Under the pieces are notes generated by a model, which was given only the letters and a program-made list of their open reading frames with translations, had not been told where the DNA came from and made no database searches. The translations under genes were made by a program, and so were the position numbers. Shown here piece after piece: positions 40,070 through 44,723 of a stretch of DNA of 64,000 bases. Within the stretch, counting starts at the first letter, position 1. Each line of letters starts with the position of its first letter. The stretch spans positions 1 through 64,000 of the forward strand of contig NZ_VMDU01000014.1 of the NCBI RefSeq assembly GCF_008271465.1. The letters run 5' to 3'. The stretch is from Tabrizicola flagellatus. Lineage in GTDB: Bacteria; Pseudomonadota; Alphaproteobacteria; Rhodobacterales; Rhodobacteraceae.

Positions 40070-40510
40070 ATGCCCAAGCTTGTTACCCTTCTGAACGGCC
40101 CGAACCTGAACCTGCTGGGCCTGCGCCAGCCGGAAATCTATGGCCGCGAGACGCTGGAGGACGTGGCCGCCAAGGTCTCGGACCTGGGCGAGGAACTGGG
40201 GCTGCGGGTCAAGGCGCTGCAGTCGAACCACGAGGGGCAGCTGGTGGACTGGATCCACGAGGCGCGGGGCACCTCGGCCGGGATCATCATCAATCCGGGC
40301 GCCTATTCGCATACCTCGGTCGCGATCCTGGATGCGCTGAATGCCTATGAGGGGCCGGTGATCGAGGTGCATATCTCGAACATCCACAAGCGCGAGGCGT
40401 TTCGGCATCACTCTTACGTCTCGGCGCGGGCCGACGGGGTGATCGCGGGCTGCGGGACCGAGGGCTATCTTCTGGCCCTGCGGCGGATCGCATCGCTCTT
40501 GAAGGCATGA
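40070..40510 (+). CDS. aroQ: 3-dehydroquinate dehydratase, type II
   Basis: 146 residues. Type II dehydroquinase fold: [18 protein letters not shown] at the N-terminus with the catalytic Tyr loop, then [34 protein letters not shown] and [20 protein letters not shown] with the active-site His and Asn residues. It performs the third step of the shikimate pathway. The stop overlaps the next ATG (ATGA). Confidence 0.96.
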
Positions 40511-41790
40511 GCGACAGGTTCCGCTGGCACCCCGCCGCCCGGCTGTTCGACAGCACTGGGGGTGAGGTTCTGCGCGTGGGCCCCCCACCTCCATCGTCGG
40601 GGCAGTGCCCCGACCCCCACCAGGGGGAGGGGAGGCGCCCGGATCGGCCGGTCGGGGCGGTCATGCCCGACAGTGCCGCGGGCCTGGCCGCCGCCATCGG
40701 GCATCCGGCCTTCCGCATCGGCGCGCCCGATGAGCCGCCGCCCGATGGGCACGAGGTGCCGGTGCTGGAGACGCTGACCTCGGGGTCGATGGGCCGGCCG
40801 CGCCGGATCCGGCGGACGCAAGGGTCCTGGACGGCGAGTTTTGCTGTGAACGCGCGTTTCGGCATCGGCCCCGGTGCGCGGGTGGCGGTGCCGGGGCGGC
40901 TGGTGCATTCGCTGTCGCTGTACGGCGCGGTCGAGGGGCTGCATCTGGGGGCCGAGGTGCATCTTCTGGCGGACCTGCGCCCCGACCGGCAGCGGCAGGC
41001 GCTGGCCGAGCGGCGGATCACCCATCTTTACGCCACGCCCGCGCAGCTGCGGCTGATGCTGGGTCCCGGAGCCCTTCCCGACCTGCAGCTGATCCTGATC
41101 GGCGGGTCGAAGCTCGACAGCGCCTTGCGCGCGGGGCTGGCGGCGCTCGCGCCGGGGGCGGAGCTGCGCGAGTTCTACGGCGCGGCCGAGACGAGTTTCG
41201 TCACGCTGGCCGATGCCGCGACGCCCGAGGCGTCGGTCGGGCGGCCCTATCCGGGGGTGGCGCTGCGGCTGGACGCGGACGGCACGATCTGGGTGCAAAG
41301 CCCCTATCTCTTCCTCGGATATGCCGGCGAGGGCGGGGGTGAGGCCGGTTCCGGCGCGGCCCCCTCCCCCCTCGTGGGGGAGGGAGGGGGTGGGGGGGCC
41401 TCGGCTGCGCGCTGGCGCGAGGGCTGGCTTTCGGTGGGCGAGGTGGGCCGGCTTGAGGAAGGGTTCCTTACCTTGCGCGGGCGGGCGGGGCGGATGGTGA
41501 CGGTGGCCGACCAGAACGTCTTTCCCGAAGAGATCGAGGATTTCCTTCTTGGCCTGCCCGGCGTTGTGCGCGCCGCCGTTCTGGCGCTACCGGATTCCGC
41601 GCGCGGACACCGGCTGGTCGCCGTGGTGCAGGGCGACCGGGCAGCGGAGGTGGCGATCCTGGCCGCGCTGCGGGCCGAGCTTGGCCCCACCAGGGCGCCG
41701 AGGGCGGTGGTCTGGCGGGAGGACTGGCCGGTGCTTGCCTCGGGCAAGACCGACCTGCGCGCGCTGGAGGCCGCGCTGTGGCCCGCCTGA
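40507..41790 (+). CDS. AMP-binding acyl-CoA-synthetase-like protein carrying palindromic inserts
   Basis: 427 residues, shorter than the usual 500-plus. Adenylation motifs are present in modified form: [14 protein letters not shown] as the P-loop (with Arg replacing the usual Lys), [39 protein letters not shown], and a C-terminal ASGKTDL Lys. Two unusual low-complexity stretches, about residues 22-48 and 274-298, are encoded by GC-rich palindromic DNA. Coupled to aroQ upstream (ATGA) and to the thiolase downstream (13-base overlap). Context suggests it activates a carboxylate in biotin-related metabolism, as its neighbours resemble B. subtilis yhfT-yhfS-yhfU. Confidence 0.72.
40573..40642. 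repeat. GC-rich palindromic element, family 2, copy 1 (inside the ligase gene)
   Basis: Contains GTCGGGGCAGTGCCCCGAC, a perfect 19-base dyad, and ACCAGGGGGAGGGGAGG, a block shared with copies 2 and 3. It stays in frame and encodes a Pro/Gly-rich stretch in the ligase near residues 22-45. Confidence 0.65.
41358..41400. repeat. GC-rich palindromic element, family 2, copy 2 (inside the ligase gene)
   Basis: Arms GGCCCCCTCCCCCC and GGAGGGGGTGGGGGGGCC enclose CTCGTGGGGGAGG. It encodes [15 protein letters not shown] within the ligase, between the adenylation motifs ending LFLGYAG and beginning WLSVGE, where homologues have only a short loop. Confidence 0.65.
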
Positions 41791-42848
41791 TCGCCGCCCG
41801 GCGGACGGCGGTTGTCCCGCGCGGGGGGGCCTTCGCGCGCCTCAGGATCGAGGATCTGGCCGCGCCGGTGCTGACCGCCTGTCTGGCCGATGCCGGGATC
41901 GGGCCGGGGCGGGTGGACGAGGTGATCCTGTCGAACGCTCTTGGCGCCGGGGGCAATCCGGCGCGGCGGGCGGCGCTGGCGGCGGGGCTGCCCGAGCGGG
42001 TCGCGGGGCTGACCATCGACCGGCAATGCGCGGGGGGGCTGGATGCGATCCTGCTGGCGCGGGCGCTGGTGGACAGCGGCGCGGTCGAGGTCGTGCTGGC
42101 CGGCGGCGTCGAAAGCTATTCCCGCCGCCCCTTGCGGCTGGCGACCGACCCGGACGGCGGCCCGCCGGTGCCTTACGACGAGGCGCCCTTCACCCCCTGG
42201 CCCGACCGGGACCCCGGGATGGCCGAGGCCGCCGAGGCGCTGGCCCGGCGCCTGGGGATCGGGCGCGCCCGGCAGGAGGCCTGGGCGGCGGAGAGCCATG
42301 CGAAGGCCGTCGCTGCCGATCTGTCGGCGGAGATCGTGGCGCTGAACGGGGTCGCGCGCGACGCCTTTCCGCGCCTTTTGACGCCGAAACTCATGGCCCG
42401 TGCCCCGGTCCTGACCGGCAGCCTCACCGCGGCCACGGCGGCGGTGGCGGCGGATGCGGCGGCGGTCTGCCTCGTCGTCTCGGACCGGATCGGGGCGGGG
42501 CGGGGGCTGGCGATCCTGTCGGGCGCAACGGTTGGTGGCACCCCGGAGGAGCCGGGCCTTGCGCCGGTCGCGGCGATCCGGCGCATCTGGGACGGCGAGC
42601 CGCTGGCCCAGGCCGAGATCATGGAGGCCTATGCGGTGCAGGCGCTGGCGGTGATCGACGCGGCGGGTCTTGACCCGGCAATCGTCAATCCCGGCGGCGG
42701 GGGGCTTGCGCGCGGGCATCCCGTGGGGGCGTCAGGGGCGATCCTTGCGGTGCGGCTGTTCCACGGACTGCGGAAGGGCCGGGGCCTTGCCGCCATCGCC
42801 GCCGCCGGAGGGATCGGCACGGCGCTTCTGGTCGAGGCGCCGGCCTGA
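41778..42848 (+). CDS. Thiolase-like protein lacking the second catalytic Cys
   Basis: 356 residues from a GTG at 41778, overlapping the ligase by 13 bases. The first Cys of thiolases is present (DRQCAGGLDA), as is the His in GGGLARGHPVGASGA. The usual NEAFA motif reads MEAYA, and the final Cys-containing motif is GLAAIAAAGGIGTALL with no Cys. This suggests acyl transfer without normal Claisen chemistry. It ends four bases before the convergent bioY gene. The B. subtilis counterpart arrangement (yhfS beside a BioY gene) suggests a biotin-linked role that is not established. Confidence 0.75.
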   Translation: MARLIAARRTAVVPRGGAFARLRIEDLAAPVLTACLADAGIGPGRVDEVILSNALGAGGNPARRAALAAGLPERVAGLTIDRQCAGGLDAILLARALVDSGAVEVVLAGGVESYSRRPLRLATDPDGGPPVPYDEAPFTPWPDRDPGMAEAAEALARRLGIGRARQEAWAAESHAKAVAADLSAEIVALNGVARDAFPRLLTPKLMARAPVLTGSLTAATAAVAADAAAVCLVVSDRIGAGRGLAILSGATVGGTPEEPGLAPVAAIRRIWDGEPLAQAEIMEAYAVQALAVIDAAGLDPAIVNPGGGGLARGHPVGASGAILAVRLFHGLRKGRGLAAIAAAGGIGTALLVEAPA

Positions 42849-42852
42849 GGCG

Positions 42853-43395
42853 TCAGGCGCGGGAGAGGAGCGAGGCGGGACGCATCCGCGCGAGGCTTTG
42901 CGTGACAAGGCCCGCGATCACCGCCTTGACCGCATCGCCCGGCAGGAAGGCGGCCGAGAGGAAGGCGGCCTCGCCCAGGGTTTTCCCCAGCATCACCGAC
43001 ATGCCGATGATGCCGAAGACGTAAAGCACGCCGATCCCGCCGATCACCGAGGCCGCGGTGGCCGCGACCATGGGCGAGAGCGTCGTGCGCTCCATGAACC
43101 AGCCGGTGACGAAGGCCGCGACGGGGAAGCCCACGAGGAAGCCGACCGAGGGCCCGGCAAAGACACCGATGCCGCCGCGCCCGCCCGACAGAAGCGGCAG
43201 GCCCGCGGCGACGAGCGCCAGGAACAGAAGCACCGCCAGCGCTCCGCGCCGCGCGCCAAGCACCGTGCCGCACAGCATGATCCCCAGCGATTGCGCGGTG
43301 ATCGGCACGCCGGCGGCGAGGTCGATCTTCGGGATCAGGCCCAGGACGGCGATCAGCGCGGCGAAAAGGGCGATGTGGGTCAGATTGCGTTCCAT
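42853..43395 (-). CDS. bioY: Biotin ECF transporter, substrate-binding subunit BioY
   Basis: 180 residues, six membrane helices. BioY signatures: LAAGVPITAQSLGIMLCGTVLGARRGALAVLLFLALVAAGLPLLSGGRGGIGVFAGPSVGFLVGFPVAA, with the Gly-rich loop and the later FLPGDAVKAVIAGL that holds the biotin-pocket residues. It captures biotin; with BioM and BioN it forms the full transporter. It is third in the minus-strand order bioM-bioN-bioY. Confidence 0.94.
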   Translation of the reverse strand: MERNLTHIALFAALIAVLGLIPKIDLAAGVPITAQSLGIMLCGTVLGARRGALAVLLFLALVAAGLPLLSGGRGGIGVFAGPSVGFLVGFPVAAFVTGWFMERTTLSPMVAATAASVIGGIGVLYVFGIIGMSVMLGKTLGEAAFLSAAFLPGDAVKAVIAGLVTQSLARMRPASLLSRA

Positions 43396-43420
43396 GATGT
43401 CCCCGTTCGTTCCCGGCCAT

Positions 43421-44017
43421 TTAATCAGCGCCGCCCCGGGCGCGCAAGGCCTCGGCCACCCGGTCCGCGTCGTCGAGTGCGGCCAGCACCGCCGGGACCA
43501 GCACCCGCCAGCGCGGCCGGCGGGGGGCGCGGGCGCGCCAGCTGGCCTCGATCTGGGCCATACGGTCCAGCATGACCGGGATGAAGCGGATCACCAGGGC
43601 AAAGGCCAGCGCGAGGCGGCGGGGCGGCAGGAGGGGCGACAGGGGGCGGGCTAGGTGCTCGAACACTGCCAGCATTTCGGACAGCCGCGTGGTCATGGTG
43701 ACGAAATTCGCCAGCGCCACCGCCGTCACCATCCTGAGCAGGATTGCCGCGCCGCCGGACAGGTCGGCGGTCCAGAGATGCCAGAGGCCGACCACCGCGA
43801 CGAAGGGCCAGAGCGGCCAGAGATGACGCGCGCCGGTCCGGGCAAAACGCCCGCCGCCGGTCAGATACAGCGCTACCGTGGCCAGAGCGGCGCCGGCCAG
43901 CGCCCAGGGCGAGGCGAGGAGGAACAGCCCCGTTGTCGCCAAGGCGAGCGCGGCCAGCTTCGCCCCGGCGGGCAGGCGGTGCGCCCAGGTCTCAACCGGC
44001 GAGGTCAGCGTCAGCAT
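43421..44017 (-). CDS. bioN: Biotin ECF transporter, transmembrane subunit BioN
   Basis: 198 residues from the ATG at 44017, overlapping bioM by 26 bases. EcfT-type membrane protein with the coupling motifs near the C-terminus (ALVIRFIPVMLDRMAQIEASWRARAPRRP, the Ala-Arg-Ala signature) that bind the ATPase. Hydrophobic helices precede it. Translationally coupled to bioM. Confidence 0.92.
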   Translation of the reverse strand: MLTLTSPVETWAHRLPAGAKLAALALATTGLFLLASPWALAGAALATVALYLTGGGRFARTGARHLWPLWPFVAVVGLWHLWTADLSGGAAILLRMVTAVALANFVTMTTRLSEMLAVFEHLARPLSPLLPPRRLALAFALVIRFIPVMLDRMAQIEASWRARAPRRPRWRVLVPAVLAALDDADRVAEALRARGGAD

Positions 44018-44723
44018 CTTCCGCTCCGATCCGGGCCATTTCGGCGGTGAAGGCGGGCAGCACCAAGTCGGGCGGGCCGTCGAGCGCGATGCGCCCGGAG
44101 TCCAGCCAGAGCACCCGGTCACAGGTGCCAAGCGTCGCCGGGTCGTGGGTGATCGTCACCAGGCGCTGCGGCAGGGCGGCGAAGCGGCGGGCAAGCCGCG
44201 CCTGCGTCGGCAGGTCGAGCCCGGCCAGCGGTTCGTCCAAGAGGATCGTGCGCGGCGCCATCAGCAGGACCGAGAGCAGGCAGAGGTAATGCCGCTGCCC
44301 CTGGCTGAGGCTGGCGACCGGCACGCCGGCCCAATGCGCGCGCCCCTCGGCGGCAAGCGCGGCATGGGCACGGGCCAGCGCCTCGGACTGAGGCATTCCC
44401 TGCTGGGCAAGGCCGAAGGCCAGCTCCTCCTCGACCGTGGGAAAGAGGATCTGGTGGTCGGGATTCTGGAACAGGATGCCAAGGGCCGCGACCGCGGCGC
44501 GGCGGTCGGCGAAGGGATCGAAGCCCTCGACCCGGACCGTGCCCGTGTCGGGCGCGATCAGCCCGGCGATCAGGCGCAGAAGCGTGGTCTTGCCCGATCC
44601 GTTGCGGCCGAGGATGCCGATGCGGCGCTCGGTGAGGGTGAGATCGATCCGCTCCAGCACCGGGCGCCCGCCAAGCCGGAGGCTGGCCGAGGCGATCTCG
44701 ATGCCGAGGGAGGGGTCAGGCAT
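43992..44723 (-). CDS. bioM: Biotin ECF transporter, ATPase subunit BioM
   Basis: 243 residues. ABC ATPase: Walker A GRNGSGKTTL near residue 39, Q-loop FQNPDHQILFPTVEEELAFG (ECF-type wording), signature LSQGQRHYLCLLSVLL, Walker B ILLDEPLAGLD and H-loop TITHD. It powers biotin uptake with BioN and BioY. First gene of the bioMNY unit. No BioR-type box was recognised in the short upstream region. Confidence 0.93.
   Translation of the reverse strand: MPDPSLGIEIASASLRLGGRPVLERIDLTLTERRIGILGRNGSGKTTLLRLIAGLIAPDTGTVRVEGFDPFADRRAAVAALGILFQNPDHQILFPTVEEELAFGLAQQGMPQSEALARAHAALAAEGRAHWAGVPVASLSQGQRHYLCLLSVLLMAPRTILLDEPLAGLDLPTQARLARRFAALPQRLVTITHDPATLGTCDRVLWLDSGRIALDGPPDLVLPAFTAEMARIGAEDADADLAG

Follow-up and report, generated by a model that had tools for sequence, protein, structure and literature searches.

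The genes for an acyl-coenzyme A (CoA) ligase and a thiolase-like enzyme that converge on a biotin transporter operon were analysed in Tabrizicola flagellatus. The stretch of DNA, referred to here as the window, comprises 64,000 nucleotides (NZ_VMDU01000014.1, positions 1–64,000). On the plus strand, aroQ (40070–40510), which encodes a type II 3-dehydroquinate dehydratase according to Pfam and NCBIfam matches, overlaps by 4 bases with a gene (40507–41790) for a compact YhfT-like acyl-CoA ligase of the adenosine monophosphate (AMP)-forming type, identified by the Pfam domains AMP-binding and AMP-binding_C. The end of the ligase gene overlaps by 13 bases with the start of a gene (41778–42848) for a YhfS-like thiolase-fold enzyme, recognised by Pfam Thiolase_N and Thiolase_C and by residue alignment. 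The minus strand carries bioY (42853–43395; Pfam PF02632, 5.5e-35), which ends 4 bases past the thiolase stop codon, followed by bioN (43421–44017, start approximate; CbiQ PF02361, 9.5e-15) and bioM (43992–44723; Pfam ABC_tran and NCBIfam ATPase families of energy-coupling factor (ECF) transporters). By Pfam, this uninterrupted run of the substrate-binding S component BioY, the T component BioN and the ATPase BioM constitutes a BioMNY biotin ECF transporter. The ~1.06 kb between the ends of the ligase gene and bioY is filled by the thiolase gene. The open reading frames (ORFs) and the Pfam matches agree with the first-pass annotation, which had described ligase-like and thiolase-like genes lying tail to tail with bioMNY.

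The top NCBIfam match of the window ligase is PRK07638 (170 bits, cut-off 518), and the second-best match of the thiolase, after a general thiolase model, is PRK06690 (196 bits, cut-off 498). We take PRK07638 to be the YhfT family and PRK06690 the YhfS family. The bioY-linked pair of a Bacillus sp. passes both models, with 610 and 568 bits, respectively. Thus, the window pair is assigned to these families, as a proteobacterial branch that has diverged.

The first-pass annotation also proposed a real functional link between the pair and bioY, to be checked by co-occurrence across genomes. Species genomes were scanned with an alignment of the ligase alone, and the counts that follow refer to the best 80 of 591 confirmed candidates. 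bioY lies within 5 kb of the ligase gene in 78 of these 80 loci, a thiolase gene lies within 1 kb in 73, and bioN is found near the ligase in 59. The loci belong to Alpha- and Betaproteobacteria, Bacillota (16 loci) and two cyanobacterial records, that is, to three phyla. Since 11 of the 12 members of the query alignment came from bioY-linked loci, the 78/80 figure describes this ligase family and not ligases at large. No bioY match was found near the ligase in loci L151 and L175, the latter having bioN just before the ligase gene. The co-directional order bioY-ligase-thiolase is commoner among the 80 loci than the tail-to-tail order. A tandem pair of bioY-like matches precedes the ligase gene in L117 and L118.

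Co-occurrence was also determined in a sample of 289 alphaproteobacterial genomes, in which the ligase loci were inspected for the best 30 matches, so that weaker pairs may have been missed. The pair was found in eight genomes, all of which have bioY somewhere, as compared with bioY in 117 of the 289 overall (p = 0.0006 for the association). bioY is next to the pair in seven carriers; in the exception, genome G077, the detected bioY is on another contig. The boundary of the set is gradual, the thiolase of the eighth carrier scoring 198 bits and that of the next genome, whose adjacent ligase was unchecked, 188 bits. Among 72,556 plasmid records, 24 have a YhfS-like thiolase (E < 1e-30), and bioY was present beside the pair in all eight neighbourhoods read, including an unannotated Microvirga record in which it was located by tblastn. 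In an Azospirillum plasmid found through the ligase, bioMNY, ligase and thiolase genes all run in one direction. Taken together, these data strongly support a real link of the ligase-thiolase pair with bioY in three phyla, as had been proposed. A gene for a second AMP-binding protein lies near the module in a Paracoccus plasmid (L071, 9214–10407). Related ligases also occur in 114 Rhizobium plasmid records; in the one neighbourhood read (L074), the pair is accompanied by a thioesterase-like gene.

The catalytic residues of the thiolases were compared in an alignment of 74 thiolases of the 80 loci and the window enzyme with 22 comparison thiolases. L142 and L160, whose C termini are unreadable, were excluded from the residue counts, and L151 and L175, near which no bioY was detected, were included. 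All 22 comparison thiolases keep the full set of Cys, Asn, His and Cys. In the thiolases of the loci and the window, the nucleophile Cys is kept in 75/75 and the His in 73/73 readable sequences, and the second catalytic Cys is absent from all 73, being replaced by Ala (51) or Gly (22); it is lost in none of the comparison set. The position of Asn316 is occupied by Met in 37 of the 73, including the window, by His in 14 and by Asn in 22. In the window enzyme, the nucleophile Cys in DRQCAGG and the His in GHP are conserved, the second Cys is Ala, and the Asn of the NEAF motif is Met; it does not have the Cys-His-Cys and NEAF Asn set of a degradative or biosynthetic thiolase. In a tree, thiolases of the Ala type, those of the Gly type and the comparison set were separated by branches with support of 100/100, 100/94 and 100/99 (bootstrap not yet settled), and the window thiolase clustered with the Ala-type thiolases of bioY-linked loci (100/100).

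In ordinary thiolases, the last Cys serves as acid/base in the Claisen step, in which it deprotonates acetyl-CoA, and it is required for thiolysis. Its loss therefore argues against plain thiolysis or condensation with acetyl-CoA, and the residue pattern argues for malonyl-dependent condensation or simple acyl transfer by the YhfS-like enzyme. The name "acetyl-CoA acetyltransferase" is thus doubtful for the YhfS-like family. Loss of the second Cys in the thiolases of these loci was not encountered as a reported feature in the literature searched.

The six AMP-forming motif residues checked are kept in the ligases of all 80 loci. The window ligase is a compact enzyme without the greater part of the N-terminal region found in its relatives, and it retains the A10 Lys with Glu in place of the A7 Asp and Arg in place of the A3 Lys. 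The same features characterise its genus, in which the measured ligase lengths are 382–444 residues, Arg replaces the A3 Lys in 29/30, Glu replaces the A7 Asp in 30/30, and the A10 Lys is kept in 30/30. Both genes are under purifying selection in the genus, with a median ratio of nonsynonymous to synonymous differences (pN/pS) against the window of 0.375 for the ligase (29 pairs) and 0.232 for the thiolase (25 pairs). The ligase gene contains two in-frame, G+C-rich, partly palindromic low-complexity stretches (40561–40650 and 41336–41415). Both fall where the genus relatives vary in length, and no other copies of them were found within the window.

A search of 61 genomes found the ligase in 31 of the 32 that belong to the window genus. 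The other 29 have no close copy, giving two matches only, of 77 and 83 bits. In all 29 genus loci, aroQ, ligase and thiolase genes are co-directional and aroQ adjoins the pair; bioY was seen in 21, on the opposite strand in each, and the remaining eight have short fetched flanks. The tail-to-tail order was also found in a second genus of the family (genome G190) and in Rhodobacterales plasmids. aroQ adjoins the pair on a Thioclava plasmid as well, in which aroQ, ligase and thiolase genes are followed on the other strand by a nitroreductase gene, bioY, bioN and bioM. aroQ, the first gene of the plus-strand run, is probably a bystander.

Further genes accompany the pair in other loci. In the Bacillota, two ORFs for hot-dog proteins similar to HadA and HadB follow the thiolase gene in 9/16 loci, and an ORF for a FabG-like short-chain dehydrogenase/reductase follows the hot-dog ORFs or the thiolase in 7/16, so that 12/16 loci have one or both kinds. 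Family models were run on the proteins of L163, L148 and L169 only. The hot-dog proteins tested matched Pfam FAS1_DH_region and MaoC, with NCBIfam HadB below its cut-off, and the short-chain dehydrogenase/reductase tested matched Pfam adh_short, with the NCBIfam FabG models below theirs. A nitroreductase-family gene is present within ~4.5 kb in 14/80 loci and in 7/8 annotated bioY-bearing plasmid neighbourhoods. In L040 and L042, and by ORF span also in L133, nitroreductase and ligase share one ORF. Neither the HadAB- and FabG-like partners nor the nitroreductase were met as reported partners in the literature searched. A ligase, a condensing enzyme, a ketoreductase, a dehydratase and a candidate reductase together suggest a cycle that may alter an acyl chain by two carbons.

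Other neighbours do not discriminate. A CoA-transferase III-like ORF occurs in 7/80 loci and an enoyl-CoA-hydratase-like ORF in 5/80, one of them in Bacillota. In three loci from Hyphomicrobiales or from unplaced Alphaproteobacteria (L120, 10626–12635; L125, 10636–12660; L126, 10698–12807), an enoyl-CoA-hydratase-like and a CaiB-like ORF lie adjacent on the opposite strand beyond the thiolase gene. As between chain elongation and beta-oxidation, these neighbours are neutral.

In the Bacillota, a BirA-like site of the form GTTAAC-N14-16-GTTAAC (at most one mismatch) precedes bioY in 14/16 loci, as compared with 2/301 random windows and 3/128 regions upstream of other ORFs. Of the two half-sites, the second (GTTGAC) can also serve as a −35 box, which is not so for the first (GTTAAC). 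According to the accessible parts of two reports, BirA of Bacillus subtilis binds the yhfUTS operator with biotin and adenosine triphosphate (ATP) (PMC4016012), and yhfS-yhfT is repressed by BirA in Staphylococcus aureus (PMC6391492). Together with the sites, these data indicate that the Bacillota module is probably switched on at biotin shortage, which fits a role in supply better than one in breakdown. One-mismatch BioR boxes were seen upstream in two Proteobacterial loci, the number of loci qualifying not having been recorded.

The relation of the module to biotin synthesis was assessed by searches for bio genes. The window genome gave no match to bioB (E 1e-20) or bioD (E 1e-8); the genome-wide search for biosynthesis genes covered these two and not bioF or bioA. 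BirA is present, and a dependence of the organism on external biotin is therefore predicted. Escherichia coli queries (E 1e-4) gave no match to bioB, bioF or bioD in the 80 fetched loci, and a bioA-like aminotransferase gene occurs in five, at a distance of over 4 kb from the ligase gene. Hence, the module follows the importer and not biotin synthesis. bioB was further surveyed in the genomes of 50 of the 80 loci, chosen in favour of isolates, and in 24 of the 32 genus genomes. It is missing in 22 of the 23 ligase-bearing genus genomes tested (present in G008), in 27 of the 36 non-Bacillota genomes tested and in all eight carriers among the 289 alphaproteobacterial genomes, and it is present in 13 of 14 Bacillota. 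No association of the module with bioB absence beyond the effect of bioY was detected (p = 0.60 among bioY-positive genomes; p = 0.054 over all 289). As the module tracks the importer and occurs both with and without synthesis, the use of something imported is the simplest reading.

In six Bacillota (L192, L193, L194, L195, L197 and L199), bioB lies beside a second bioY, divergently in L199, and no bioA, bioF or bioD was found in the fetched 12–16 kb, an arrangement that probably represents salvage of dethiobiotin. Halobacillus and Thalassobacillus (L196 and L198) have bioA, bioF, bioD and bioB together, and their genomes gave neither a BioW match nor a BioC score over cut-off.

We tentatively propose, with less than even confidence, that the pair forms the centre of a salvage route, linked to BioY and serving cells short of biotin, in which imported biotin with a shortened side chain is elongated by two carbons. 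BioMNY would import a shortened biotin, and bisnorbiotin is the prime candidate because it is a known product of biotin beta-oxidation. The ligase would convert it into a CoA thioester, and the YhfS-like enzyme would load the acyl group on its Cys and condense it with a two-carbon donor. This donor would most likely be malonyl-CoA or malonyl-acyl carrier protein (ACP), used in the manner of a ketosynthase, since the Cys that deprotonates acetyl-CoA in ordinary thiolases is lost. A 3-ketoacyl reductase, a dehydratase and an enoyl reductase, the last possibly the nitroreductase, would complete the cycle, and BirA would then use the regained biotin. In the window organism, housekeeping fatty-acid enzymes may supply the missing steps. 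The substrate, direction and donor of the cycle are inferred. On a broader view, held with slightly more reserve, the module would represent an undescribed form of vitamin repair, in which shortened biotin is imported, activated with CoA and rebuilt by one ketosynthase-type cycle of a thiolase lacking its Claisen base; it would extend to at least three phyla, be plasmid-borne in several Rhodobacterales and, in the Proteobacteria, serve mainly biotin auxotrophs.

Several observations weigh against this proposal. The window ligase is compact and departs from its relatives at two ATP-site motifs, and no enoyl reductase, reductase or dehydratase gene was found near the pair in the window. A relative of the Thioclava nitroreductase was found in none of eight window-genus genomes searched (E 1e-10), so that housekeeping enzymes would have to serve there. 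Six of the 80 loci (L132, L135, L167, L168, L177 and L182) have no thiolase match, and on the Rhizobium plasmid L074 (6246–9404) a related ligase accompanies a thiolase lacking C378, and the 15 kb read there gave no match to bioY. Decarboxylating ketosynthases have a Cys-His-His or Cys-His-Asn triad; to our knowledge, Met at the position of Asn316, as in 37 thiolases, resembles no ketosynthase triad. The enoyl-CoA-hydratase-like and CaiB-like ORFs of L120, L125 and L126 would suit beta-oxidation too. The best BirA-like site of the window has mismatches at 4 of 12 positions and no BioR-like box (TTATMKATAA, at most one mismatch) was seen there; hence we do not assign the window to a BirA regulon. 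Re-elongation of bisnorbiotin by bacteria was not found in the literature searched, part of it seen incompletely and subscription journals mostly outside the search.

The gene content would also suit a biotin-sparing lipid route, in which acetyl-CoA carboxylase fails when biotin is scarce and the BirA-controlled gene set activates fatty acids and extends them by a malonyl-CoA-free cycle that uses acetyl-CoA, bioY being merely a co-responding neighbour. The ligase, thiolase, FabG-like and HadAB-like enzymes suit general acyl elongation, bioB is missing in most Proteobacterial carriers tested, and biotin-repressed control would be expected, as indicated by the Bacillota sites and the available parts of the BirA reports (PMC6391492, PMC4016012). 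However, condensation without malonyl-CoA needs the very Cys that is lost in 73/73 thiolases, the linkage is to a biotin importer, and lipid-type genes are rare in the Proteobacterial loci (CoA-transferase III-like in 7/80, enoyl-CoA-hydratase-like in 4/80), which makes such a route unlikely. It is rather less likely that another imported vitamer, such as alpha-dehydrobiotin or a side-chain-oxidised or otherwise modified biotin, is processed via its CoA ester. The bioY linkage would be explained equally, and reduction of activated C=C bonds is within the capacity of nitroreductase-family flavoenzymes, but a condensing-type enzyme in 74/80 loci would have no role. Much the same low probability is given to the handling of biotinyl-CoA, by which the ligase would trap biotin and a thiolase-like thioesterase or acyltransferase would release or transfer it, reducing leakage at times of biotin scarcity. 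The conservation of only the acyl-transfer Cys and His suits this function, and BioY recaptures biotin leaked by S. aureus, as far as the accessible part of that study goes (PMC12642757); against it, the FabG-like, HadAB-like and nitroreductase partners and the nitroreductase-ligase fusions would be unexplained.

The first-pass annotation had offered salvage or modification of biotin, a pimelate-type precursor and breakdown as possible roles, of which salvage fits best. Synthesis of a pimeloyl precursor, in which the pair with HadAB- and FabG-like enzymes would extend glutaryl-CoA to pimeloyl-CoA, could provide the missing pimelate source of some Bacillota: BioW (E 1e-8) and BioC (over cut-off) are both absent in 8 of the 13 bioB-positive module-bearing Bacillota genomes, and Halobacillus and Thalassobacillus, with bioA, bioF, bioD and bioB together, have no such source. 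Nevertheless, neither bioB nor bioD was matched in the window genome, which has BirA, so that pimelate for its own biotin is unlikely there; bioB is missing in most non-Bacillota carriers tested, six Bacillota have bioB by a second bioY with no bioA, bioF or bioD in the fetched stretch, and B. subtilis possesses BioW too. This role is accordingly regarded as very unlikely. Breakdown of biotin by side-chain beta-oxidation, for carbon or in competition, is the least probable of all, though beta-oxidation likewise employs a ligase, a dehydratase, a dehydrogenase and a thiolase, and an enoyl-CoA-hydratase-like ORF is near in a few loci. It would require the lost Cys for thiolysis, and organisms that need biotin and import it with high affinity would be destroying their own vitamin. 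It fits poorly with biotin-repressed control as well, given the BirA-like operators of the Bacillota, BirA repression in S. aureus (PMC6391492) and BirA binding in B. subtilis (PMC4016012), in so far as those sources were available.

The proposed salvage module may be compared with known systems. The yhfU-yhfT-yhfS genes of B. subtilis and the yhfT-yhfS genes and bioY of S. aureus share with the window the BioY importer and the ligase and thiolase families, and are BirA-controlled there, according to the parts of the reports available (PMC4016012, PMC6391492). The Bacillus connection drawn by the first-pass annotation was already known and is not new. In contrast to both systems, the window has its own bioMN, a convergent gene order, a compact ligase and aroQ in front, with no BirA-like or BioR-like site seen and no genomic bioB or bioD match; the comparison uses the Bacillus sp. 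pair, which passes the same models, as a stand-in. From the accessible portion of its description, the BioZ route employs a FabH-like enzyme that condenses glutaryl-CoA with malonyl-ACP to 3-ketopimeloyl-ACP (PMC11089781). As in the proposed model, a condensing enzyme with a catalytic Cys extends an acyl-CoA primer and feeds the biotin supply, whereas YhfS belongs by sequence to the thiolases and not to FabH, and is linked to import and not to bioF, bioA, bioD and bioB. Acetoacetyl-CoA and 3-ketoacyl-CoA thiolases share with YhfS the sequence family, the nucleophile Cys and the His of GHP, and differ in the second Cys, absent in 73/73, and in Asn316, replaced in 51/73. HadAB and FabG of fatty acid synthesis are resembled by the partner genes of the Bacillota (MaoC, FAS1_DH_region and short-chain dehydrogenase), which are not present in the window.

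YhfS has been placed in a dead-end mevalonate pathway of B. subtilis in the part of the source available (PMC3686787). No tested function for yhfTS was found in the literature searched, in which sources were in part incompletely seen and subscription journals mostly lay outside the search. Genes under the control of the biotin repressor, for which that literature gives no function, are thus offered a testable role. The proposed salvage also points to an economy of damaged vitamins; if it is true, some organisms scored as biotin-requiring could live on biotin breakdown products.

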